DNA of 64,000 bases from Pycnococcus provasolii (lineage: Eukaryota; Chlorophyta; Pseudoscourfieldiophyceae; Pseudoscourfieldiales; Pycnococcaceae). The notes under the pieces are model-generated. The model was not told where the DNA came from and searched no databases. It worked only from the letters and a program-made list of their open reading frames with translations. The stretch spans positions 186,001-250,000 of the forward strand of contig OW568863.1 in assembly GCA_938743325.2 (NCBI GenBank), given 5' to 3'. The position numbers and the translations under genes are program-made. This document shows, in pieces, positions 578-13,197 of the stretch. The stretch's first letter is position 1; the number at the start of each line of letters is the position of its first letter.

Positions 578-586
578 ACCTATGTA
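578..586 (+). repeat. Left target-site duplication (ACCTATGTA)
   Basis: The nine bases abut the left inverted repeat exactly and recur abutting the right one. A C precedes both copies, so a 10-bp reading is possible if the element is taken to start one base further in. Nine is the typical MULE value. Confidence 0.9.
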
Positions 587-910
587 GAGGGGGGGATAAT
601 GGTCAGATGATCACAGTGGTAGTGGTGCAAGACCAACACCGGGTCCCCAGAATAACGGGAAAATTACTACCGAAAATTTACTGGTGCATTTACTGGTGCA
701 GACTAAATTCACGGTACAAGAGTTGGGTTTTTCTGGGAAGCACGACCTGAGTGCCCGTACTCTCGTACCGGTTTGGGTGAAGGGCCGACCTATCGCCCCG
801 TTGTTCCCCGCCGACCTAACGCCCCGTTGTGGAGGGTTCAGGGTTCCTCCTGGAGGCGGCGAAAAAACGATCGTCTTAAGCAAGGCCATCTCAGATCATC
901 GCCATCACCA
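587..910 (+). repeat. MULE left terminal inverted repeat
   Basis: It matches the reverse complement of 12113-12428. The outer 245 bases or so differ at about one position. The inner part has an indel of about 8 bases and a few substitutions before similarity fades near GCCATCACCA. Because both element genes start just inside their repeats and point inward, the repeats probably carry their promoters (inference). Confidence 0.92.
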
Positions 911-922
911 CCGCGGCGGTCA

Positions 923-1240
923 GGCCAGCCTTAAGGCGCGGCCAGCAGGACGAGCAGCAGCAGCAGGGCAGCAGGAGCAACTGCAGGGACGCAGTGTCAA
1001 GGCCAGCCTTAAGGCGCGGCCAGCAGGACGAGCAGCAGCAGCAGGGCAGCAGGAGCAACTGCAGGGACGCAGTGTCAAGGCCAGCCTTAAGGCGCGGCCA
1101 GCAGGACGAGCAGCAGCAGCAGGGCAGCAGGGTCAAGGCCAGCCTTAAGGCGCGGCCAGCAGGACGAGCAGCAGCAGCAGGGCAGCAGGGTCAAGGCCAG
1201 CCTTAAGGCGCGGCCAGCAGGACGAGCAGCAGCAGGGCAG
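923..1240 (+). repeat. Subterminal tandem repeat, five units
   Basis: Units begin GGCCAGCCTTAAGGCGCGG at 923, 1001, 1079, 1137 and 1195. The first two are 78 bp, the next two 58 bp through loss of an inner segment of about 20 bp, and the last is partial. The array lies between the left inverted repeat and the transposase ATG. Subterminal repeats are often transposase binding sites in DNA transposons; that role here is inference. No comparable array is visible at the right end. Confidence 0.9.
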
Positions 1241-1241
1241 G

Positions 1242-4200
1242 ATGGCAGGGTTCCCATGTCACGGGCTACGCGCCCTTAGCACGGTGCTCGCGTCGGCGGA
1301 TACGCACGCCGCCCTAGAGAAGAAAGCGGGAAGCCTGATGGTCAGCCTCACGGGAAGGCGAGACGCGAAACGCCTTCAAGCGATCGTCGCAAACTTGTAC
1401 GTCAGAGATGGCGTCGTCTACGCCCGCTCTGACGTACAAGTTCATGAGCAACTCGTCGTGCCTAAGGAGGTGTCGTTGTTCGTTGTGTGTATGGCTGCTG
1501 TAACTATCACAGTAAACACACTTAAAAAGACGACACGCACGAAACACAACGCCCTGTTCAGCTCCCAGGCCGTTGTGCAACTCCTTGCCAAGCACGGCTT
1601 CTACGCCGGCGTGAAGAAGTCCGGCAATCTTGGCGTAGAGCAAGTCTCCCCCCTCATAGATGCTTTCCAAGACAGAATCGACGACTTGCTCGACGCCACA
1701 GTTGTGGCGCACAAGGCGTTGCCCACTGGCAATGACGTGTGTGCCCAAGTTAAGGCCGTCTATGACGTGCTCACTAGCATTGGTTGGCGTGATTTGCCTA
1801 CCAATCCTGATGTAACACGTGCCTTTTTAAAATCTGAGCGTGACGTCCTCTTCGGTCCGCCCGGCGATGCTGGACGACGTTTCGTGTTCAGCATCGCCGG
1901 TGAGCAGCACGTCTGTTGGACACGGTTTCGACACATTGCCGTCGCGGCGGCATCAAAGGCACGTGGAATACACGTATATTATTGCCACCGCTGGCGTGAG
2001 CCGAGACACACGTCCACGCATCCTTCCGGCACACCCGGAATGTCTCAGGCACACGAGGAGAAAGAGAAGGAGAAAGAGAAGGAGACGTCGGACTCTAACG
2101 TCAACGGCGTCGACGTCGACGACAACTCAAACAGCCTGAGTGCACCGGCTGATGTTTCATCGAGTCGTGCCTTCGTCGACGACATGGCCCCTCACGAGAG
2201 CATCATCGCAGCCGTGTTACCATTCGACGAAGCGGTGCATGATGGCTCTGACAGTGACAGTGAAGACGACGGAGATGAAGGAGACGGCTCGCACGGCATA
2301 GATGTTGCTGAGGATAGTGGAGTAACTCAACAACTTTCCACAATCCCAAAACATTTATTGCCTCCCAGTTTTCCTGAATTACGCGGCGCTCCGGACGTTC
2401 CCGTTCCTCCACCGCCTCCCGCTACCGATCCTCCACGACCCGCTCCTTCACGAACAGCGCGTGAAAGACGCTCACTGAACACCCACAAGGGTTGTTCTTG
2501 TCGTGCGAAATTGGTCGTGATTGAGGGAAAGGAGGCTATAGCCCTTGTGGCATGCCACGACCACACCGGTCATACTGTTGGATCCGTGGAGGATAGGAAG
2601 CACCTACCTGTACATCCTGCTGTGGAACGAATGATCGCTGATCAAGCGAGCAAGCGTTGCACTCTCCTCAGTCGAGGAGAGGTCGCCAAGTACGCGAGCT
2701 CTTGCCGCCTCACATATGTGAAGCACCGACGACGTGTTCTCTTCGAGAATGAGACGCGTTCGGCCTCCTTGCCGGGGTACGCACCGGGAACGTCGGCAGC
2801 GTCTCCTGCGTTCGAAGTTCGAAAACGAGGAGATCTTTTACAAAGTGTAACTGAGCATAGGAAAGCGTTTTGTTTGTGCAACTCGTTCCTTCCCCCCTCA
2901 GAGCATGGTGCCGTTCCCGTAGTCACGTGCATGACATGTTGTGACGTCTACCACGTGTCGTGCGTTTCCAACGCCCTGTGGTACGATCATGGTGTTGACC
3001 ACGACACGTGGCGATGCCAGCCGTGCGTCAAAAACGGCACCGCGCGCATGTCTGACGCGCTCAACATGTGCGCCGAATCCGGTCTTCCCTTCAACATCAG
3101 CGACTTCAGGCCGTGGGTCACGAAGGAGGATTTCAAGAATAGTAGGAAGGCCGTGAATGCGAGCTCCCGTTCGTACCGCTCAAGCGTGGACGACGACATT
3201 CGCGTTCTTCAGCAGTATCACGAAAGTGTTGCATTTCCCTCCACGTACATAAGAACGTGTGAGATGGCGAACACCACCAAGCTCCAAGAACTCGAGTTCA
3301 TGGTGATTAGTCCCAAGATGTTGGCATTTGCAAAAAAAAACCGAGGAGTTCTTTCTGTATTACATATTGACTTCACACACAACACGACCACGTCTTCGGT
3401 CCAGTTGGGTTCAATTGTTGGCGCGAACGCCGACACCCGGGGCACGGGAATACCCCTTGGACACATGTTCTACCTCCCAGGTAGCGTACAAACCCAATAC
3501 AACGACAAGACCTCAGCCTTGTACAACGTGTACAACGCGTGGTCTGAGGCCATCGATGCTGGCATCGATGGTTATCGTGTCACCCGATGCCATATGATGG
3601 ACAAGGATGTCGCGTCGTTGAACGCAACCCTGATGTTGATGAAGAAGCGCTTGAGGAGCGCCCTTCACAGGAACAAGGATGTGTTGGACGCTGAGATCCA
3701 CACACTCTCTAGCATGCCGTGCATGTCGGACGATGGCACGGCCAAGGCCGTCGTTGAACAACTTAAGACCTTGAAAACGCCTGTCACGACCACACCACAT
3801 GCCCATACAAAAAAAAAGGCAGAAACGCACGGACTTCTCGCACCGCACGTGTCCGAGCTTTTCGATGCAGGCGTTGTCCATGGCCTCGCACATCTTCTTG
3901 TAGCAGAGTTTCATGCGGCAAGTGCGAAGCTCATTTCCGCCGATTCGTGTGGCAAGTGGAATAACGCTGCGTCGGAGTTGTGGTGGTGCCTTAGCATCTT
4001 GAACAAAGACTGTACTTTGTATCACATTGTAAACACGTTCATGTGTACCTTTGTGTTTCTTTGTTCATGGCACGCCCACACTGCGATCGCTAGAGAGATC
4101 CAGGCCTACAACATGGTTGTCAGGGACTACGTTGATGAAGTTTTGACATCAATCAAAGCCATCTTCAGAGGTGATATGTGCTTGGACGACTTCGTCAGCA

Positions 4201-7200
4201 CGCACCGTGATGTGCTTTCGGTAGTAGGTGAACCACCTCTCAAAAAGAGAAAAGTAGTTCAAGGAGTCACGAGGAGTAAACATGAATATCAACTAGTTCG
4301 TTACCTCAACAATGATTGGTTGTGCGACACGTACGCGCCCCTCATTCTCCAGTCGTACCGTGCCCCAATCCCGCGGTACGAGATAGATACTAACAATCAG
4401 GCTGAAATATCGTTCAACGTGTTGAAGCACAATATCGCACGTTCGATAGCTTCACCAACAGTTAGGAATCTCCTTCAGGTTTTGGTGGGCACGCCCACGG
4501 CCCCAGACCCACTGAATTCCGTCATTGGCGTGAAGCTTCAAGACGTTGATCACATGAGACTTGGTGTCTCATGTGAGAGTAAAAATTACAAGGCGACACG
4601 TCTCACCGCCAAGATTGACGTGCTACGACTCCGTTTGCACAACGATGACGGGTACGTGGAAGATGTGTCCCCCGGCGGTTATGTTGTAAGGGTTGGTCGG
4701 GGGAGTAAACGGGGGAGTAAACCTCTTCTACCCTCTGAACATGACGTGAGCCCCTCAAGCCACATAGCTGACGGCGACATACAAGTCAGCCGCGCGGCCC
4801 ACTTCTCCGCGAAGTCCACTGCTTCTGATGAGAAGGAAAGAGTGATACAACTCAAGGGAATCGTTGGAGCTATAGTGCCCCATCACGCGATGGGACTATT
4901 CGAGCATAGCACTGATGTGTTGCGTATCGCGGACGCGGTACACAAGTCAGCGTTTGTAAAGCACTTTAGTGCATTACACAGGATTTCAAAGTATAGAATA
5001 GCCGACGCCATGCGTCACGCGCCCACAAGATTGCATGAGCGCGTAGCTACTATTCTTGCCAAGCCACCGGCGACTCGAACTCACGAACACTTGCGCCAGG
5101 CGTTCTACCACTTGGGCATGCCAGTGGTGGAAAAGTGGCATGGCATGCCGCGGGTAGGTGCTTGTTATGTGGTCATGGTAGTCATGGCACCACAGGTCCT
5201 AGTAGGCGCTGTAGACTTCGCTAAAGAACAACCAGAAGCCCTCGCGCTTGACGTGTTGTCGGTGTTGTTTAGCGCATTTGACTACGTTCAGGCCCGGCCT
5301 AAAGCCCAGGCTCTTGAAAACGTTACGTTATTCTACGTAGGTCGAGAGCTCCGCAATGTCCACGCCCTCAAGCGCGTGTTGGACCATGGAACCAAGTCAG
5401 GTTCGCCTATATTGCACCACTTCGTTGGTGCATCGAAGGGCTGGGTCACCGAACCCTTCGGCGCTGTCGCAGTGGAAAGGCGTTTCGTGGCTTTCACACC
5501 ACCATCCACACAGATGCTCGACATAGCTGAGGCCGCATGGCACGTGGTCTTGCTCGAGTGCGCCATGCCTTGCGTAGCCAACACGTCACCAGGGGGTGAT
5601 CCACATGGCCACCGGTTTCTGCACGACACGCACGTGGCAACGTCAGGGATTATGAGGATGGGTCACGACCGACTCAGGGATCATGGTGTGAAGGCAATTT
5701 CAGAGATGAAGTTGTCCTCCGAACAGAACCCGTTCATGAAACGAGCGCTTGTCGCCTCCTCCCGTACACTTCGCCTCACGCGTGGACGCGGTGAAGCTGA
5801 CGCGGACGTGGGCGAAGACCTGTGGTGGGATGCGTGGTGCAATGCCGTAGATGGCAATCAAGAAGAGCACACTGTACACTTGTGGTGTAACATATGCTCT
5901 TGCGGAAATACCTTTTGCGCACACCTCATGTTAGCCCGGAAACGCCACGAAGACATGTTTCACAGGGTTCAGGTGTGGGATGACGACATGTTGTCCTTGT
6001 ACAAGGGACAAGCACACAGGGATGGTGGTGCTGACACATGGACGGAACTCGACGAGGCCGGGTTCGAATATGGTCCATGTAACTCTCCAAGCGAGGAACC
6101 CCTTGCACCATTCCAAAGCCATGTGCCCGCTTCACCCGACATGCGTCAGTCCTTAGAGGAAGCGTCCATGTGCGCGTACGCGGTGTCGCTCTCTTTGGCC
6201 AAGATGGCGAACGGAGAGTGTGACACTGTCACGCCGAAGGCAGCGGCGGATTACCGAGATAGGTTGTTTGCTATGTTGTCATCCATACGAAACGTCGAAC
6301 GTGGCGTCGTAGGAGTCCGAGCCCAGTCAGAGCACTGGATGACTCGGAGCGTCACGGCGTCCGAAGTGCAAATGTCGAACGCCGCAGCACGTGACGTGCA
6401 CTCGTCTGATTTTCACGAAATCATGCGAAGTGCTTTGAGCTCCGGCGCGCATGCTCGGTTGTTCACATTCATGAAAGGAGTTGTAGGGCCCACGGCGACG
6501 CCGTCGGCGACGCAAACTCAGGCGTCACCGTGTCAGAACTTGGTCAACGCAGCAATGCAAGCCATCGCCGAGTTGCCGTCTGAAACGGTGACGCCGAGTC
6601 CACCTGTGGCGGCGAGGCGGGCGAGCAAAGGCAAGGAGAAGGCCTTGTCTCAGACGGAGGAGCACGTGTTGCCATCTCAGGTCTTGCCGTCTCCAACGGA
6701 GACGGGAAGTCAACCCGCGACGAGGAAGTCCTTGCACGTGACATTCACGCAAGAGTCGGACGTGCACATCGCACCCACACCGGAAGAGTGTAAACGCCAT
6801 TTCCTTGCGGTTCTTCGCAGAGATGCTTTCGACGAGCTTGTGTATGTAACTGAAGAGGAATTTAACAAGTTCTCGGTGCATACGAAGGAGTGGTACGACA
6901 CCCAGGTGTTGAAAGCGAACATTTTGGAATGTGGAATTAAGGACATCGTAAGTGGACACCACCTGTGGACCCTCAAGCCTGGAGGATGGCTTAAGGATAG
7001 CATTGTAACGTATATGTTATATTGCGTTCTTGCAAGCGTGAAAGTCCCACACGAGCGTGATGAGAAGGGTGTGTTTAGGCCCAACACACTCGTCCACATG
7101 CACTGTGCTTTATTGTCCGACACGAACCAGTCTTTCGACAATAAAAAAAAACTTAAGGACAAGATGAACAAGGCGAAACGGTGGCTATGTGTTGTATGTA

Positions 7201-8240
7201 ACGATGTGCACTATAGTCTAGTTTCCGTTAACTGTGAGAGTGGTGCTATTCAGCACTATGACAGTTGCCCTGGTCTGCACACAAGTGAAACGGTGCTTAC
7301 ATTTTGTAAGACAATGTTCGGACGTCGATTCCGAGACATGTCTTATGAAGTAGTAGAGTGTCCGAAACAAAACAATGGCTTCGACTGCGCGTTATACACT
7401 GCGTTGAACGTTGAAGCGGTTCTACTCGACGTTAGCCCTAATGTTGTCACGCAGCGTCGAGTGAACGAGTTGAGGAAAAGCACACGAGTGAAGCTCAAAG
7501 ATTGTTTCCTAGGTCAAGAGCAAGACTGGTGGGTAGAGGAGGAAGACGACGATGAAGTTGCCGCGAAAATTGAGGAACTTCACACAGTTGGACACGTCCT
7601 CGTGCATGTCATGAGCGACGCCGACGCGTGGAAAATCCACCACGCGTTGGTGACAACACTCGCGAACAACACGTTGGTGGCGTGGGATGGAATCTTCGAC
7701 AACGTTGTTGCGCAAGATGCGCAAGATGGGCAAGAAACCTTTGAGCGTGACATGATAAACGTGAATGACGCTTTCACAAATCATGTATCAGGAGGCGAAG
7801 ATCTATTACAACGTATCGAAAGTTACCACAATCGTGTAGATAGGTACATGGGTGGTAGGACGTGCCCAGAAGGAGCCGTGCTCTTGCGGTCGTGTCCCGA
7901 GCGCGCAGGAAATAATGCGCGTACGGGCTTGCCCAACTTCAAGAAAGGTCCATGTCAAGCCCCGCACGTGGACTACACGGACGTATATGAAGACGTAGCG
8001 GACGACGATGTTCCGCTTGTCGTCATCATAGCGATACAAGAAGGCACCAAGGTGAGGATCTGGCCAGAGTCAACGAAGGGGAAAGGCATATGGATTGCGA
8101 AAAAAAAAAAGAATGAGAACCTAACAAAAGGACTGTTGGACTACGTGGACGTGCACATTCCCGTCGGGTACGCATTCATCATGCGCGGGGACCTCGTGCA
8201 CGCCGGCGTAGGATACGACATCGTGCAGCTCAGGTTGTGA
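1242..8240 (+). CDS. MULE transposase with PHD, SWIM, Ulp1 protease and 2OG-oxygenase-like domains
   Basis: One uninterrupted frame of 2,332 residues starting at the first ATG after the tandem repeat. In order: an acidic low-complexity region; a GCM1/FLYWCH-like zinc finger (C418, C420, H439/H441, H444); a PHD finger (about 544-595, CxxC pairs ending CQPC); the MULE DDE core with D710 (HIDFTH), D787 (MMDKD), CxxH motif C941-H944 and E1055 (NNQAE); an SV40-like nuclear signal KKRKV at 1001-1005; a SWIM finger (C1552, C1554, C1559, H1561); a Ser/Pro/Thr linker near 1750-1840; a Ulp1/C48 SUMO-protease fold with H1990, D2007, Q2043, C2049; and a C-terminal double-stranded beta-helix with H2242-x-D2244, H2320 and R2331, as in 2OG-Fe(II) dioxygenases. 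Zinc-finger MULEs and Ulp1-bearing MULEs (Kaonashi type in plants) are known. The fused oxygenase is not one I know. Every key residue is present. An unseen short intron cannot be excluded. Confidence 0.9.
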   Translation: MAGFPCHGLRALSTVLASADTHAALEKKAGSLMVSLTGRRDAKRLQAIVANLYVRDGVVYARSDVQVHEQLVVPKEVSLFVVCMAAVTITVNTLKKTTRTKHNALFSSQAVVQLLAKHGFYAGVKKSGNLGVEQVSPLIDAFQDRIDDLLDATVVAHKALPTGNDVCAQVKAVYDVLTSIGWRDLPTNPDVTRAFLKSERDVLFGPPGDAGRRFVFSIAGEQHVCWTRFRHIAVAAASKARGIHVYYCHRWREPRHTSTHPSGTPGMSQAHEEKEKEKEKETSDSNVNGVDVDDNSNSLSAPADVSSSRAFVDDMAPHESIIAAVLPFDEAVHDGSDSDSEDDGDEGDGSHGIDVAEDSGVTQQLSTIPKHLLPPSFPELRGAPDVPVPPPPPATDPPRPAPSRTARERRSLNTHKGCSCRAKLVVIEGKEAIALVACHDHTGHTVGSVEDRKHLPVHPAVERMIADQASKRCTLLSRGEVAKYASSCRLTYVKHRRRVLFENETRSASLPGYAPGTSAASPAFEVRKRGDLLQSVTEHRKAFCLCNSFLPPSEHGAVPVVTCMTCCDVYHVSCVSNALWYDHGVDHDTWRCQPCVKNGTARMSDALNMCAESGLPFNISDFRPWVTKEDFKNSRKAVNASSRSYRSSVDDDIRVLQQYHESVAFPSTYIRTCEMANTTKLQELEFMVISPKMLAFAKKNRGVLSVLHIDFTHNTTTSSVQLGSIVGANADTRGTGIPLGHMFYLPGSVQTQYNDKTSALYNVYNAWSEAIDAGIDGYRVTRCHMMDKDVASLNATLMLMKKRLRSALHRNKDVLDAEIHTLSSMPCMSDDGTAKAVVEQLKTLKTPVTTTPHAHTKKKAETHGLLAPHVSELFDAGVVHGLAHLLVAEFHAASAKLISADSCGKWNNAASELWWCLSILNKDCTLYHIVNTFMCTFVFLCSWHAHTAIAREIQAYNMVVRDYVDEVLTSIKAIFRGDMCLDDFVSTHRDVLSVVGEPPLKKRKVVQGVTRSKHEYQLVRYLNNDWLCDTYAPLILQSYRAPIPRYEIDTNNQAEISFNVLKHNIARSIASPTVRNLLQVLVGTPTAPDPLNSVIGVKLQDVDHMRLGVSCESKNYKATRLTAKIDVLRLRLHNDDGYVEDVSPGGYVVRVGRGSKRGSKPLLPSEHDVSPSSHIADGDIQVSRAAHFSAKSTASDEKERVIQLKGIVGAIVPHHAMGLFEHSTDVLRIADAVHKSAFVKHFSALHRISKYRIADAMRHAPTRLHERVATILAKPPATRTHEHLRQAFYHLGMPVVEKWHGMPRVGACYVVMVVMAPQVLVGAVDFAKEQPEALALDVLSVLFSAFDYVQARPKAQALENVTLFYVGRELRNVHALKRVLDHGTKSGSPILHHFVGASKGWVTEPFGAVAVERRFVAFTPPSTQMLDIAEAAWHVVLLECAMPCVANTSPGGDPHGHRFLHDTHVATSGIMRMGHDRLRDHGVKAISEMKLSSEQNPFMKRALVASSRTLRLTRGRGEADADVGEDLWWDAWCNAVDGNQEEHTVHLWCNICSCGNTFCAHLMLARKRHEDMFHRVQVWDDDMLSLYKGQAHRDGGADTWTELDEAGFEYGPCNSPSEEPLAPFQSHVPASPDMRQSLEEASMCAYAVSLSLAKMANGECDTVTPKAAADYRDRLFAMLSSIRNVERGVVGVRAQSEHWMTRSVTASEVQMSNAAARDVHSSDFHEIMRSALSSGAHARLFTFMKGVVGPTATPSATQTQASPCQNLVNAAMQAIAELPSETVTPSPPVAARRASKGKEKALSQTEEHVLPSQVLPSPTETGSQPATRKSLHVTFTQESDVHIAPTPEECKRHFLAVLRRDAFDELVYVTEEEFNKFSVHTKEWYDTQVLKANILECGIKDIVSGHHLWTLKPGGWLKDSIVTYMLYCVLASVKVPHERDEKGVFRPNTLVHMHCALLSDTNQSFDNKKKLKDKMNKAKRWLCVVCNDVHYSLVSVNCESGAIQHYDSCPGLHTSETVLTFCKTMFGRRFRDMSYEVVECPKQNNGFDCALYTALNVEAVLLDVSPNVVTQRRVNELRKSTRVKLKDCFLGQEQDWWVEEEDDDEVAAKIEELHTVGHVLVHVMSDADAWKIHHALVTTLANNTLVAWDGIFDNVVAQDAQDGQETFERDMINVNDAFTNHVSGGEDLLQRIESYHNRVDRYMGGRTCPEGAVLLRSCPERAGNNARTGLPNFKKGPCQAPHVDYTDVYEDVADDDVPLVVIIAIQEGTKVRIWPESTKGKGIWIAKKKKNENLTKGLLDYVDVHIPVGYAFIMRGDLVHAGVGYDIVQLRL

Positions 8241-8458
8241 TGGAACGAGCCACTGCCTGTAGGTTGTGGTGTGTGTTCTTGGTGTGTGCCCCCGGCACCG
8301 GTATCACCTTCAGACGCCATACGTTGTGGTCGAGTGAAAGTAAGTAAAAAGTCAAGAACGAGTTACAAGTGTAAAGAAAAGAAGAAGCGCGCCGCCAGCG
8401 CGCCAGCAGCAAAGCGCGTCGAGCGATCGTGATCACACGATCGCTATCTTTACATCAA
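8241..8458. other. MULE internal spacer between transposase stop and Copia element
   Basis: About 220 bp with no full gene. A short Lys/Ala-rich plus-strand frame (about 8319-8429) is open but has no start or recognisable family. Confidence 0.4.
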
Positions 8459-8630
8459 TGGAAAACGTCTTGAGTTGTTTATTCCAAAGGGGGGGGATTA
8501 TAGTGGGCTGTCAGTCACCCACTATAAATACACCACGTCCTGAAAAAGTCAAGACGTAAAACCAAACAAACCAAATCTCCAGTGGGGGTTTCACCAAAAC
8601 AAACCCCCAATCGATTCGCCCCTCTCAGCA
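8459..8630 (-). repeat. Copia LTR (left copy)
   Basis: 172 bp, TG...CA ends, apparently identical to 10766-10937. It contains the inverted words GTGGGCTG..CACCCAC and a TATAAATA box-like sequence on the plus strand. Confidence 0.9.
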
Positions 8631-8673
8631 CTCCTCCTCGCCGATCGCAGTACGAGCTGTGGTTGGTGCCAAG

Positions 8674-10731
8674 TTAGCTCAGCGAATCGAGGTCCCCTCC
8701 ATGCAGCGCAACCGCGGTCATGCGCTCGTGATCCACACGAGGAAGTCCCTTCGTGAACATGTCCGCCAGCTGAAGTTTGGTGGAGATGTACGTCACGTTG
8801 ATCGCGCCGCTGAGTACCCGCTCTCGCACAGATTTGATCCTGTAGTCCACATGCTTGGTCCGCCCGTCGTAGCGCCTGTCGCCCAGTATCTGGATTGCGG
8901 CCGAGTTGTCCTCATGCACAGGCGTACGATCTTGGCCTAATCCTAGTTCTGCAAGTAGCAGTCTGGCAGTCATCACCATGTCAGAGTGATCCGCGAGTGC
9001 GATTAGCTCAGCCTCTGCCGAAGACTTCGCGACGACCTTCTGCTTCATCACTCTCCAGTGCACCAGAGCTTGACGATTGATCCGCAGAGCAAGCCCTCCT
9101 AGGCTACGACGGTCAGGCTCGCCAGCCCAATCGCTGTCGACGTAGGCCACCAGTCGAATGGATGTCGCGTCACTGTCGTTGCCGTACCACAGACCAAATT
9201 GACTCGTCTGCGAGACATACTTCAGGATTCTGTTGCAAGCCGTGTCGTCAGCTAAATCAGCTTGATGCATCTTCCGCGCCACGCAGTTCACGGCGTGCGC
9301 AATGTCCGGTCTCGTCCCGCATGCCAGATACAGCAAGCATCCGACTTTCGATCTGTATTCTGTCATCTGTTGTTTTGTCAGTGGTGTAGTGTTCGCAGCC
9401 GCTGATTCCGTCGAGGGTGTGTGCACTGCCCGCTGTTCATCGATGACTCTCTTGAATTTGTTGGTCAGCATGAGCGAGTAGTTGGTTTGATGCACTCGAA
9501 CGCCATCGGGTTTGTATTCGAGTTGCATTCCAAGCAGTTGCTTAGGTTGCAATTCCAGCTTCACTCGGTCGAAATGCTTACGCAGAAGAGCTGTCAAGTC
9601 GTCGATGTCTACTTGTCGTTGTGCAAAGACAGGTCCGTCGTCGACATGCGTAGCGATCACTACGAGGTTGCCGTCTGCTAAGTTTCCACGGAAGAAGATG
9701 CACGGATCTGAGTCCGAGCGTTGATACTCCAGCAGAAGGGTTTGCTCCAAGTGCAACCAGAAGCTCCTTCCTGCGTCGCTCTGTCCGTACAGTACTCGCA
9801 GAAGCAGGAGTGCGTCCGTGGTACCATCCCAGTAGCCAGTGGGCTGAGATATCACGCAGCGTCGCTGTGCTGGCGTCGATGCGAATGCGTTGCCGATGTC
9901 GAAGCAAGCAGAGTGTTTGAAGACGCCTTGTCCGAGCAAGCTGATGAGCATACGTAGCATTGGCAAGCTCACCATTGCAGAGTACTTTGAGAATTCATGC
10001 ACTTCTCGGTCGCCCCTCACACAGAACCTGCTACGGCACTGCTTGATTGTACCGTCAGGATTTAGTTTGTACCTGTACGCCCATGTGACTGGAAGTGGTC
10101 GCTCCCCTCGCAATAGCTCGTGCTGATGTATCCGCACGAAGCATCCCATCGCGTAGAGGTTGTCAATTTCTTCCATCTCTCCGTCGATGAACCACTGCGC
10201 ATGAGGGCCTGCCAACATCTCTGCTCGCGTCTTTGGATCTTTCAGGTGTAGTCCGATCTCCTGCGTGAGCTTGTCCATTTTGAGGATATCAAATTTGGCT
10301 CCTTCCTCGCAGTGCTTCGCCATGAGGATGTTGACAGCTAGTCCTTTCTCAAGCGTAGTAGCGTGTTTCGTCTTCGCCAGTTCTCCGTTGAGTATCTTAT
10401 CCGCATTCAGCTTGACATGCTGCGATGACGAAATGATCTTCCCTGGTCCTTGGTAGATCAGAGCTCCGGGTTCTGCCGTGGTGCGCTCATCATCGATTCC
10501 GACGTATAGGCCAGGCGTGCTCTTGGGCATGTGCTTCCCACCTCGGTTGTCAGGGTGAAGCCACATCATTGCATCGCAGCCGTAGATTCCCAAGGTATCG
10601 GACGTTGGTACTATGTGAGTATGCAAGGCGCGTGCGTTCCGTTGCGTCGCATCTGGAATGATTTGCCGGATGATTTGATTTTCACATAGTATGTTCGGTG
10701 CGCCTGCGATGTAGTAGAGTTGCTGCAGCAA
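8674..10731 (-). pseudogene. Copia pol remnant: reverse transcriptase and RNase H
   Basis: The translation shows the end of a Copia integrase region (IYGCDAMMWLHPDN..), a Copia reverse transcriptase (VTWAYRYKLNPDG; FDIGNAFASTPAQ; VLYGQSDAGRSFW; VIATHVDDGPVF) and RNase H (VAYVDSDWAGEPDRRS; KSSAEAELIAL; KHVDYRIKSVRERV). The family assignment is secure. It is the coding part of a fossil retroelement that is not whole. Confidence 0.88.
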
Positions 10732-10765
10732 TATTGGCGGCCCGTACGTACCATTTCGTTGTCAA

Positions 10766-10937
10766 TGGAAAACGTCTTGAGTTGTTTATTCCAAAGGGGG
10801 GGGATTATAGTGGGCTGTCAGTCACCCACTATAAATACACCACGTCCTGAAAAAGTCAAGACGTAAAACCAAACAAACCAAATCTCCAGTGGGGGTTTCA
10901 CCAAAACAAACCCCCAATCGATTCGCCCCTCTCAGCA
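10766..10937 (-). repeat. Copia LTR (right copy)
   Basis: Second copy of the 172-bp direct repeat. For the minus-strand element this is the upstream LTR. Confidence 0.9.
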
Positions 10938-11166
10938 GGTTGCACAAGGAGTACAAGCACCACAGTAAGAAAAAAGGGGTATGTAAGAAGTACAACCCAC
11001 AAACTGCGTTATGGCATCCCGAATTGTTCAAGGAGCTATACAAATCCGGCAAGATAACGTGAGAAACTGTGAGGGAGAGGGGGCAGGTGAAAAGGGAAGG
11101 GGGTGTTAATCAAAAGAAAATTGAAAACCAAGGCAAATCATTTAAAATCATCATTTAAACCAACTC
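10938..11166. other. MULE spacer right of the Copia element
   Basis: The first 125 bp, abutting the LTR, form a plus-strand open frame ending at about 11063 with a coding-like translation (LHKEYKHHSKKKGVC.., TALWHPELFKELYKSGKIT). It might be the tail of a MULE reading frame that the Copia insertion separated from its start, or chance. The rest is A-rich and empty. Confidence 0.35.
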
Positions 11167-11641
11167 CTACACCCCACCGTGTTGCCCACCCTGCTGCTGG
11201 CGGCGACGCCGCATCTTCCGGCTTTGGTTCCGCCGTTGCTTCTCTTCTGGTGTGCGCCCGTTGTCGTTGACGTTGACATTCACGCTGAGGTTGTTTGTGT
11301 TATGGTAGCGGTCGCGGTCGCGGTCGCGGTCGCGGTCGCGGTCGCGGTCGCCGTCGCCGTCGCGGTAGCGGTCGCGGTCGCGACCGCGGTCGCGGTCGCC
11401 GTCGCCGTCGCGGTAGCGGTCGCGGTCACGGTAGCGGTCGCGGTAGCGGTCACGGTCGCGGTCGCCGTCGCGGTAGCGGTCGCGGTCGCGGCTGGGCAGT
11501 GGCGAGAGCGGCGGGAGCGGCTGAGCGCCACCGTCGTCGTCCTCGTCTCCGTAAAAGAAGAACGGCGGCGCTTCCGCAGCCGCCTCCACATCCAGTTCCG
11601 CCATGTCCGCCTCCCTCCTCGCCTCTGCTTCCGCCCGAGTC

Positions 11642-11676
<35 letters not shown>

Positions 11677-12102
11677 TTCCTTGGCGGCGGCTTGCCCCTG
11701 CTGGGTGAGCTCGTGCTCGAAAACACGGCCCACCCATAGTTTTTTGCACGTACGGCATCGTGGTTTAGTATAAAAGTTCATCGTACCGCAGGATCCCCAC
11801 ACACAACCAAAGAAGGGTTGCGGCTCGGTGCCGTCCCTTAGGCGGCCGCAACGCCACTGCTCGGAGTCCCTTGCGGCTTTGGCGGCGTCCCTTGCGGCGG
11901 CGGCGGCTTTGGCGGCGACGGCGGCGGCCTCGGCCTCGGCCCTGCCGGCGACGAGGAGTCCGGTCACGGACTCCCCCACCTTAGCCTTGTGCGGTATACG
12001 GAACGGTTTCTCCTGCACCTCCGACGACTTGCGTTGCTCGGCGTTGCTTGCCGAGTCGTCGGAGCCAGGGCTCGAGCTCCGACACCGGTCCTTGCCCTTC
12101 AT
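11167..12102 (-). CDS. MULE accessory protein: zinc finger plus Arg-Asp repeats
   Basis: A 311-residue frame from the first ATG. The open frame extends upstream into the right inverted repeat, so an earlier spliced start is possible. The N-terminal part is Ser/Lys-rich, followed by an Ala-rich helix, then a Cys cluster CVWGSCGTMNFYTKPRCRTC that resembles a RanBP2-type zinc finger (W-x2-C, N, C-x2-C) but has a shifted first Cys. A second poly-Ala helix follows, then an acidic patch and a long RDRDRYRDGD tract, and a basic tail (QSRKMRRRRQQQ). RD/SR-like tracts are typical of RNA-binding nuclear proteins. Its location inside the element suggests an accessory factor, but it could be a captured host fragment. 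I do not recognise a family. Confidence 0.6.
11303..11492 (+). repeat. GCGGTC minisatellite inside the accessory gene
   Basis: A six-base GGTCGC/GGTAGC/GGTCAC array that codes Arg-Asp, Arg-Tyr and Gly-Asp pairs on the minus strand. It creates long spurious open frames in every other frame on both strands. Confidence 0.9.
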
Positions 12103-12112
12103 CTGTTCCTGC

Positions 12113-12428
12113 TGGTGATGGCGATGGCGGAGATGGCCTTGCTTGAGGCAGTCGTTTTTTCGCCACCTCCAGGAGGACCTCTCCACAACGGGGCGTTAGG
12201 TCGGCGGGGAACAACGGGGCGATAGGTCGGCCCTTCACCCAAACCGGTACGAGAGTACGGGCACTCAGGTCGTGCTTCCCAGAAAAACCCAACTCTTGTA
12301 CCGTGAATTTAGTCTGCACCAGTAAATGCACCAGTAAATTTTCGGTAGTAACTTTCCCGTTATTCTGGGGACCCGGTGTTGGTCTTGCACCACTACCACT
12401 GTGATCATCTGACCATTATCCCCCCCTC
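12113..12428 (-). repeat. MULE right terminal inverted repeat
   Basis: Reverse complement of the left repeat, ending ATTATCCCCCCCTC before the target duplication. The upstream part of the zinc-finger gene's open frame runs into this repeat. Confidence 0.92.
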
Positions 12429-12437
12429 ACCTATGTA
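12429..12437 (+). repeat. Right target-site duplication (ACCTATGTA)
   Basis: Identical to bases 578-586 and directly adjacent to the right inverted repeat. The inferred empty site would read ...GTTCC ACCTATGTA TTCG.... Confidence 0.9.
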
Positions 12438-13197
12438 TTCGTTCCACCTATTTCGTTCCCCAAACTTGCCCCAAACTGGGTTGTAGTTCTAGGGGTTTCG
12501 GTTAGGGGTTAGGGTTAGGGGTTTCAAGAGGTTTGGGGTTTCGGTTAGGGGTTAGGGTTAGGTTGTTAGGGTTACTTCCAGGAGGTACCTGTTCCAGTTC
12601 CCCGGTTCTCCTTGGTTCTGTTCTGGCGAGGGAGGGGTTCAGGCAGATGTTCCAGGCAGATCGCCTTAGACTAACCTTAGGAAGGAGATGTTCCAGGAAT
12701 CCAGGCTGCCAGGTGCCAGGGCTGCAGGGGAGGCTCAAGGGGCGCAGCTGCTCCCTTGAGCCGGATTCGAATTCTGCACACCTCACTTAAGTACTCTTAT
12801 CATGCATGGCAAGCAGCACCCTTTTGTTTCTTACTCGGAGTGGAATCCCAGTGCTCCCTTGCACTTGTGTGTTTCCGTCTTTCTTGTTGGTGGACACTCC
12901 CTTGTCCTGTCTCTTTTCAAAATGCAAACTTCAATTTTCAAACTTCGAACGACGACAGAAGCAGAGCAGAAGTGGTACATACCTGGGAAGATAACCATAC
13001 AGTACCAAGTGTTTGAACTCCTCTCTTGACAGATATGCTGGCCTTTTGTTGTTGTATCTGTCGTCCGGATCACGCCGCCTTGCCCTATCTTCCACGGTAC
13101 CGGTACACCCGCGGCCCGCAGATCCGCGCACACACACGCACACGCAAATAAGTAGACTTGCACGTCCTCCTTGCTGTGCTCGGTGCGTGCGAACGGG
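12438..13197. other. Intergenic region before the subtilase gene
   Basis: No gene recognised. It holds the telomere-like tract at 12493-12573, a CAGG-rich stretch near 12650-12760, and a CACACACACGCACACGC run near 13128-13146 just upstream of the subtilase start. Confidence 0.5.
12493..12573 (+). repeat. Interstitial telomere-like tract (TTAGGG type)
   Basis: Two copies of GGGTTTCGGTTAGGGGTTAG followed by GGTTAGG units, about 48 bp apart. It lies 60 bp beyond the MULE and 630 bp upstream of the subtilase start. Confidence 0.8.

Follow-up and report, generated by a model that had tools for sequence, protein, structure and literature searches.

The 64,000-nucleotide stretch of Pycnococcus provasolii DNA analysed here (contig OW568863.1 of assembly GCA_938743325.2; hereafter the window) carries, at positions 587-12428, a complete Mutator-like transposon bounded by terminal inverted repeats (TIRs). 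Its giant transposase frame runs on past a Ulp1-type protease domain into a real, domain-sized C-terminal stretch, and we consider the chances about even that this stretch is a very divergent 2-oxoglutarate (2OG)-Fe(II) oxygenase, borne by a young Mutator-like element (MULE) and serving to protect that element from silencing.

The C-terminal domain and its possible likeness to 2OG-Fe(II) oxygenases

A preliminary description of this locus had placed an oxygenase-like domain at 7965-8240, fused behind Ulp1 to a MULE transposase and carrying H2242, D2244, H2320 and R2331 in the spacing of a 2OG dioxygenase. All four residues are present where it put them, with the codon of H2242 starting at base 7965 and the Arg at +11 from the distal His, and the open reading frame (ORF; 1242-8240, plus strand, 2332 aa) is open throughout and continues beyond Ulp1 into the C-terminal segment as described. 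The end at 8240 proved not to be a natural one. The four residues do have the order and spacing of a 2OG dioxygenase, but such spacing is common in shuffled sequences, and the profile tests were negative or marginal. By eye, a short strand, QAPHVDY, the hydrophobic strand VPLVVIIAIQ, IPVGYAFIMRGDLVHAG and QLRLH follow one another in what we take to be the order of the 2OG core.

The yardstick for the comparisons was a set of 20 translated host 2OG domains, taken from 33 genome places matching PF13640 (prolyl-hydroxylase-type), and three patterns of increasing strictness, all of which match the C-terminal domain, were counted in these domains, in shuffles and in other windows. The four-residue pattern with Arg or Lys at its end and slightly wider spacing occurred in 20/20 host domains, 10939/20000 shuffles and 37/94 other windows; when one strand before the distal His was added, the counts were 19/20, 1523/20000 and 7/94, and with a second strand (the strictest form) they were 14/20, 21/20000 and 0/94. 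In an anchored block test, which used gapless blocks and the host prolyl-hydroxylase-type family only and kept the four residues fixed, the C-terminal domain scored above 1440/1500 shuffles; the result came mainly from the block before HxD, which was matched in quality by 26/1500 shuffles, and to some extent from the block at the distal His, matched by 147/1500. The graded patterns and the block test are weak evidence because they were designed with the sequence known. When a hidden Markov model (HMM) of the 20 host domains was run against the rest of the protein as a control, none of its 38 windows ranked above the C-terminal domain among the rows listed. Taken together, the block and HMM tests appear to lend weak support to 2OG-like surroundings of some kind and no support to membership of the prolyl-hydroxylase family. 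Judged from its sequence, a 2OG-type oxygenase fold is plausible for this domain, the balance being roughly even or a little better.

Other results weigh against an oxygenase. The simple pattern HxD-x(40-130)-H-x(8-16)-R was found in 3918/10000 shuffles of the segment (39%) and in 18/75 other protein windows, so that the residue spacing alone is not evidence. The host 2OG HMM gave the C-terminal domain 1.4 bits, with 22/500 shuffles scoring higher, and hhalign against the host 2OG profile aligned only 22 columns (the HxD segment) with 1% probability and a P of 0.057. In the anchored block test 60/1500 shuffles were equally good; the strand blocks, equalled by 892/1500 shuffles, and the block that follows the distal His, equalled by 835/1500, were ordinary. 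Searches with the C-terminal domain, run to E 10, gave no oxygenase match in Pfam (domain scans), PHROGs, NCBIfam or PDB sequences, nothing for its core among the PDB sequences, and no match to the TET/JBP family PF12851 in Pfam. Protein searches over three length ranges detected nothing beyond Pycnococcus/Pseudoscourfieldia (3 matches at E<=0.01 from 176 candidates; none at E<=10 in the others, with 618 and 154 candidates) and so supplied no diverged set in which H/D/H could be compared; such searches require shared 5-residue words, and remote relatives may escape them.

A protein search of viral contigs returned nothing for the C-terminal domain or the transposase core, and tblastn against phages returned nothing at E<=10. 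The DNA pattern for RGDWVHAG was absent from the viral contigs; that for RGD[L/F]VHAG was found in 14 stretches, by eye none of them in an oxygenase-like context. The sole NCBIfam match, a ComB10 secretion model (E 0.035), is not an oxygenase, and the PDB rows AcrVA1, NOL1/NOP2/sun protein and CFAP52 (E 0.69-1.2) are at chance level.

The true end of the frame and the database gene models

The stop TGA at 8238-8240 consists of the first three bases of an inserted Copia-type long terminal repeat (LTR) retrotransposon, which makes the frame end at 8240 an artefact. The minus-strand ORF of the retrotransposon (8674-10731) matches RVT_2 with an E of 5.6e-14, and its LTRs share 176 nt (8455-8630 and 10762-10937), the left one apparently extending to 8238. 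Where the window reads GGTTG-[TGATGG ... CAGCA]-GGTTG, the copy of the element on a second contig (C2) has the empty site CAGCTCAGGTTGCACAAGG, and its uninterrupted frame encodes 2371 aa, that is, 39 residues beyond 2332, ending ...QLRLHKEYKHHSKKKGVCKKYNPQTALWHPELFKELYKSGKIT; the true stop of the frame in the window lies at 11060-11062. The C-terminal domain of the uninterrupted copy accordingly comprises ~255 residues (2117-2371). Genome matches to residues 2140-2332 are stop-free and 100% identical in 3/3 cases, and all are copies of the element.

Three database gene models of the transposase (P0002, P0003 and P0004) are available from Pycnococcus provasolii / Pseudoscourfieldia marina, on contigs of 1.10, 1.00 and 0.60 Mb, compared with 1.45 and 1.34 Mb for the contigs of the two copies examined here. 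H2242, D2244, H2320 and R2331 are kept in 2/3 models (P0002 and P0003), each of which differs from the C2 frame at 8 aligned positions, including S2183T and F2312L, none of them at the four residues; P0003 additionally keeps D710, D787 and all four Ulp1 residues. Other features of the models count against a full-length fusion protein. C941, H944 and E1055 of the transposase fall in intron-called stretches in 3/3 models, the segment left out around E1055 spanning residues 916-1075 in P0002 and, with boundaries that read GT...AG, residues 1045-1074 in both P0003 and P0004. Ulp1 residues H1990 and D2007 are spliced out in 2/3 models (P0002 and P0004), and P0004 lacks D710 and ends ahead of the distal His. 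Because the models omit E1055 and Ulp1 segments, the mature protein may not correspond to the full frame; the omission of E1055 may be either a mis-prediction or real splicing that yields a protein without the catalytic Glu. The claim that all these domains share one polypeptide stands as far as one open DNA frame and a C-terminus retained in 2/3 models are concerned, although each of the three models removes some transposase segments as introns. In the DNA the frame runs on unbroken, and a mature single chain with every domain would require that it be translated unspliced.

A complete and young Mutator-like element

Long TIRs together with 9-bp target site duplications (TSDs) are the signature of Mutator-like transposons, and the element shows both (Table 1), the TIR pair being complementary at 99% over 253 nt, with 53 nt more at 87% (repeat analysis of the window). 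Across the genome searched (32,333,900 bases in 46 contigs), at least 40 TIR matches were listed (40 scored of 56 candidates), from which 14 loci were fetched and, with the window, made up a family sample of 15 places. All of the 11 elements with full-length TIRs are flanked by an exact 9-bp TSD (11/11), and 250-253 of their 253 TIR positions are identical. Four loci fall outside this count: L051, L053 and L054, whose TIRs match at 81-84% and miss the outer ~30 bases, and L052, which combines ends from two different elements and in which no TSD was seen.

The complete transposase frame is present at two genome places, the window (contig C3) and C2 (from 436013). Only 2 substitutions separate the two copies over 9137 bases (LTR insertion excluded), indicating recent movement of the element.

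Within the frame, the Ulp1 domain is a significant Pfam match, with PF02902 matching at E 4.7e-9 on the whole protein (36.8 bits against a cut-off of 20.7) and at 2.4e-10 on the piece; H1990, D2007, Q2043 and C2049 are what we take to be the expected Ulp1 catalytic set. The PHD-like finger matches PF00628 at E 6.5e-4 on the piece, with 20.1 bits, under the curated cut-off of 24, and at E 0.23 on the whole protein. D710, D787, E1055 and the CxxH were found by eye and are presumably the residues of a MULE-type DDE core, and CxCx4CxH at residues 1552-1561, for which Pfam gave no match, is assumed to be a SWIM-type finger. The Pfam MULE profile PF10551 matches neither the ORF nor its core piece, whereas it matches 15 other genome places at E<=0.001, 13 of them above the cut-off. 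Since PF10551 does not match the transposase ORF, the assignment to MULEs rests on anatomy and residue motifs; what had been called a MULE transposase is borne out by TIRs and 9-bp TSDs, with candidate motif residues, but not by the family profile.

Table 1. Features of the Mutator-like element and of the retrotransposon inserted in it (window positions)
Feature	Position	Strand	Remarks
Left 9-bp TSD, ACCTATGTA	578..586		Letter-for-letter the same as 12429-12437
Left TIR, begins GAGGGGGGGATA	587..839	+	87% extension reaches 892
Subterminal tandem repeats, units 78/58 bp	922..1271		Direct-repeat family, 5 copies; directly before the ORF start and running into it
Transposase ORF, residues 1-2332	1242..8237	+	Single open frame; stop 8238-8240 from the LTR element
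PHD-like zinc finger, residues 544-595	2871..3026	+	Pfam PF00628
DDE transposase core	3369..4406	+	By motif: D710 (LHIDFTHN), D787 (HMMDKD), CxxH 941-944, E1055 (NNQAEISFN)
SWIM-like zinc finger CxCx4CxH, residues 1552-1561	5895..5924	+	By motif
Ulp1/C48 protease domain, residues 1971-2084	7152..7493	+	Pfam PF02902; H1990, D2007, Q2043, C2049
C-terminal domain, candidate 2OG-Fe(II) oxygenase-like, residues 2117-2332	7590..8237	+	H2242, D2244, H2320, R2331
5-bp TSD of the LTR element, GGTTG	8233..8237 and 10938..10942		Empty site present in the C2 copy
Copia-type LTR retrotransposon inside the ORF at codon 2332/2333	8238..10937	-	RVT_2 match
Last 39 transposase codons and stop	10943..11062	+	Match to L043, L002, P0002, P0003
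Candidate second protein, 339 aa	11167..12186	-	Low-complexity: Ala-rich, long Arg/Asp repeats
Right TIR	12176..12428	-	87% extension reaches 12130
Right 9-bp TSD, ACCTATGTA	12429..12437		Pairs with 578-586

Possible anti-silencing role and alternative explanations

As an oxygenase, the C-terminal domain would hold iron through H2242, D2244 and H2320 and 2-oxoglutarate through R2331. The transposase protein may attach to the ends of the element, where Ulp1 would remove SUMO from silencing proteins and the oxygenase would erase or change a silencing mark, either a methylated base or a histone/protein side chain, with the outcome that the element stays expressed and mobile. The oxygenase fold, its catalysis, its substrate and the anti-silencing role are all what we infer in this analysis. 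Such anti-silencing in cis is favoured because of the plant Ulp1/VANC MULEs, the fungal TET/JBP transposons and the two host loci, on C39 and C4, whose DNA-methylase matches exceed the cut-off. Only one PF12851 (Tet_JBP) place was found in the host genome, on C41, outside the element and below the cut-off (31.1 vs 34.9 bits). Considering that the host has DNA-methylase genes and this one sub-cut-off Tet_JBP match, DNA methylation is a possible target. Against it may be set that no clear CpG depletion was detected across the element (1.12, compared with 1.20 for the remainder of the window; 0.86 in the left TIR alone), but because the element is so young these values neither support nor exclude methylation. 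The TET/JBP link offered in the preliminary description would hold only by analogy; Iyer et al. reportedly dealt with TET/JBP and KDZ transposons in 2014. The fullest form of our proposal is that a MULE transposase whose chain also includes a SUMO protease and a functional 2OG-Fe(II) oxygenase clears its own element of silencing marks in cis, and that the oxygenase represents a lineage unmatched by the searched libraries and independent of the fungal TET/JBP transposons; this we hold to be unlikely.

Two other explanations of the C-terminal segment need to be considered. It might be an element-specific Ulp1/transposase extension, DNA- or SUMO-binding or structural, in which H, D, H and R are coincidental, a doubtful but possible account that fits the lack of any oxygenase profile match in the libraries searched or in PDB sequences, the frequency of the HxD...H...R motif in shuffles and the failure of the searches to find homologues beyond Pycnococcus/Pseudoscourfieldia; the very basic C-terminal tail (KEYKHHSKKKGVCKK) would also suit DNA binding. 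This account does not easily explain why ordered hydrophobic segments near the residues are so much rarer in shuffles (the 21/20000 of the strictest pattern, a post hoc figure), or why the surroundings of the residues outscore most anchored shuffles. Alternatively, the segment might have a beta-helix (cupin/2OG) fold but be a protein-acting or binding domain, for example prolyl-hydroxylase-type or inactive, derived from the host. A host-gene origin was considered because the TIR family captures unrelated genes, relatives L048 and L051 carrying genes of captured type; the many PF13640 places in the genome and the fact that the HxD segment gives the best local likeness to the host family point the same way. 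However, no host paralogue was detected at E<=1 (all 3 candidates were copies of the element) and the 20 host domains resemble the segment only marginally, and we think this reading rather unlikely.

It is also conceivable that the fusion exists only on paper, through an assembly artefact or through splicing that gives proteins without the full domain set, given that the ORF in the window is itself interrupted and that the three database models splice differently and all drop the E1055 segment. Yet the C2 copy is open and stop-free over 2402 codons, the join of Ulp1 to the C-terminus recurs in P0003 (with complete Ulp1 residues) and in P0002, and the models disagree with one another in the way that would be expected of transcript-free predictions, all of which makes such an explanation highly improbable. 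We retain the divergent oxygenase, at the even chance given above, as the working interpretation of the C-terminal domain.

Other features of the element and its family

The 78- and 58-base subterminal repeats (922-1271) are possible candidates for transposase binding sites. The minus-strand ORF at 11167-12186 may be a second protein of the element; it contains CGTMNFYTKPRCRTC, which in our view resembles a RanBP2 zinc-finger motif, Pfam gave no zinc-finger match for it, and a related version is held by a fragment on C15 that also retains the first ~189 transposase residues and short further pieces. An Rfam scan of the window returned nothing at the gathering threshold.

A copy on C31 (L044) is deleted between residues 218 and ~1474 and has lost the DDE core; from ~residue 1474 onward it retains a 912-codon open frame that still encodes the SWIM-like finger, Ulp1 and the C-terminal domain. 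Several TIR relatives have unrelated cargo in place of the transposase: an NPHP3_N/NACHT-type and WD40 protein in L048 (3395-6133, minus strand), a trypsin/carboxypeptidase-regulatory protein in L051 (TIR match 81-84%), and further cargo in L046 and L049. This is Pack-MULE-like gene capture. The family members without the transposase are L046-L050, L055 and L056.

Ulp1 matches were found at 5 other places in the genome besides 3 of the element family. Those at L059 (C5:1013529), L060 (C14:641253) and L061 (C6:819468) are Ulp1-type genes in long open frames that closely resemble one another; they form another, dispersed group and by eye bear no relation to the C-terminus of the element. No copy of the C-terminal domain of the element was seen by eye at the other Ulp1 places read (~3.6 kb each).

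Telomere-like words (TTAGGG/CCCTAA/GGGTTT/AAACCC; at least 2 per 400-base flank) occur in 10/11 family insertions (window 587-12428, L043, L044, L045, L046, L047, L048, L049, L050, L055 and L056), against a background of 5% of 2000 random 400-base stretches from the gene-rich part of the window at 13000-64000. The target duplication of the C2 copy is CCCCTAACC, and two 28-base copies of a degenerate telomere-like repeat (GGGGTTTCGGTTAGGGGTTAGGGTTAGG) adjoin the element in the window (12492-12562). These flanks suggest either a target preference or better survival within such repeats.

Comparison with known systems

Transposon-borne anti-silencing factors are known or proposed in plants (VANC/KIU) and fungi (TET/JBP) (PMC13317346, PMC12730594). 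The KIU genes of plant MULEs carry Ulp1 and are some of the VANC genes, which act against silencing (PMC13317346); VANC is also the subject of two other papers (PMC5735166, PMC10398659). Kaonashi/KIU and VANDAL elements are, like the element described here, Mutator-like with a Ulp1 domain; there, however, the MULEs have no TIRs and Ulp1 is encoded by one of their three genes (PMC13317346), whereas here Ulp1 and transposase lie in a single frame, with an extra C-terminal domain, and the element has TIRs. The CACTA Tnp2 proteins of grapevine and rice likewise join a transposase family and ULP1 in one protein; those proteins are not Mutator-like, and the passages on them mention no added oxygenase-like domain (PMC2528002).

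For fungi, Kojima 2025 reports ten named lineages of DNA transposons carrying TET/JBP dioxygenases, which likely aid escape from methylation silencing (PMC12730594). What they share with the present element is a 2OG-type dioxygenase on a DNA transposon, which here is a candidate only, and in PHISTA the transposase and TET/JBP are counted as separate proteins, unlike the single frame described here (PMC12730594). The words 'MULE', 'Mutator', 'fusion', 'fused' and 'Ulp1' do not occur in that text (PMC12730594), and within the open-licence literature we have not met a Mutator-like transposase-Ulp1-dioxygenase fusion in print. With prolyl-4-hydroxylase-type oxygenases (PF13640) the C-terminal domain shares the HxD...H...R/K order and a rough strand order, with no significant profile similarity.

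Even without an oxygenase, the element is a MULE that moved recently, has cargo-bearing relatives of Pack-MULE type and comes from a green lineage that has received little study. In the small genome of this marine alga its young copies, the uninterrupted one and derivatives with internal deletions can be compared directly. The combination of transposase and Ulp1 varies on arrangements already known. The single transposase-Ulp1-oxygenase chain would be new if the fold of its C-terminal domain is confirmed, and transposase, deSUMOylase and oxygenase would then be united in a single polypeptide.

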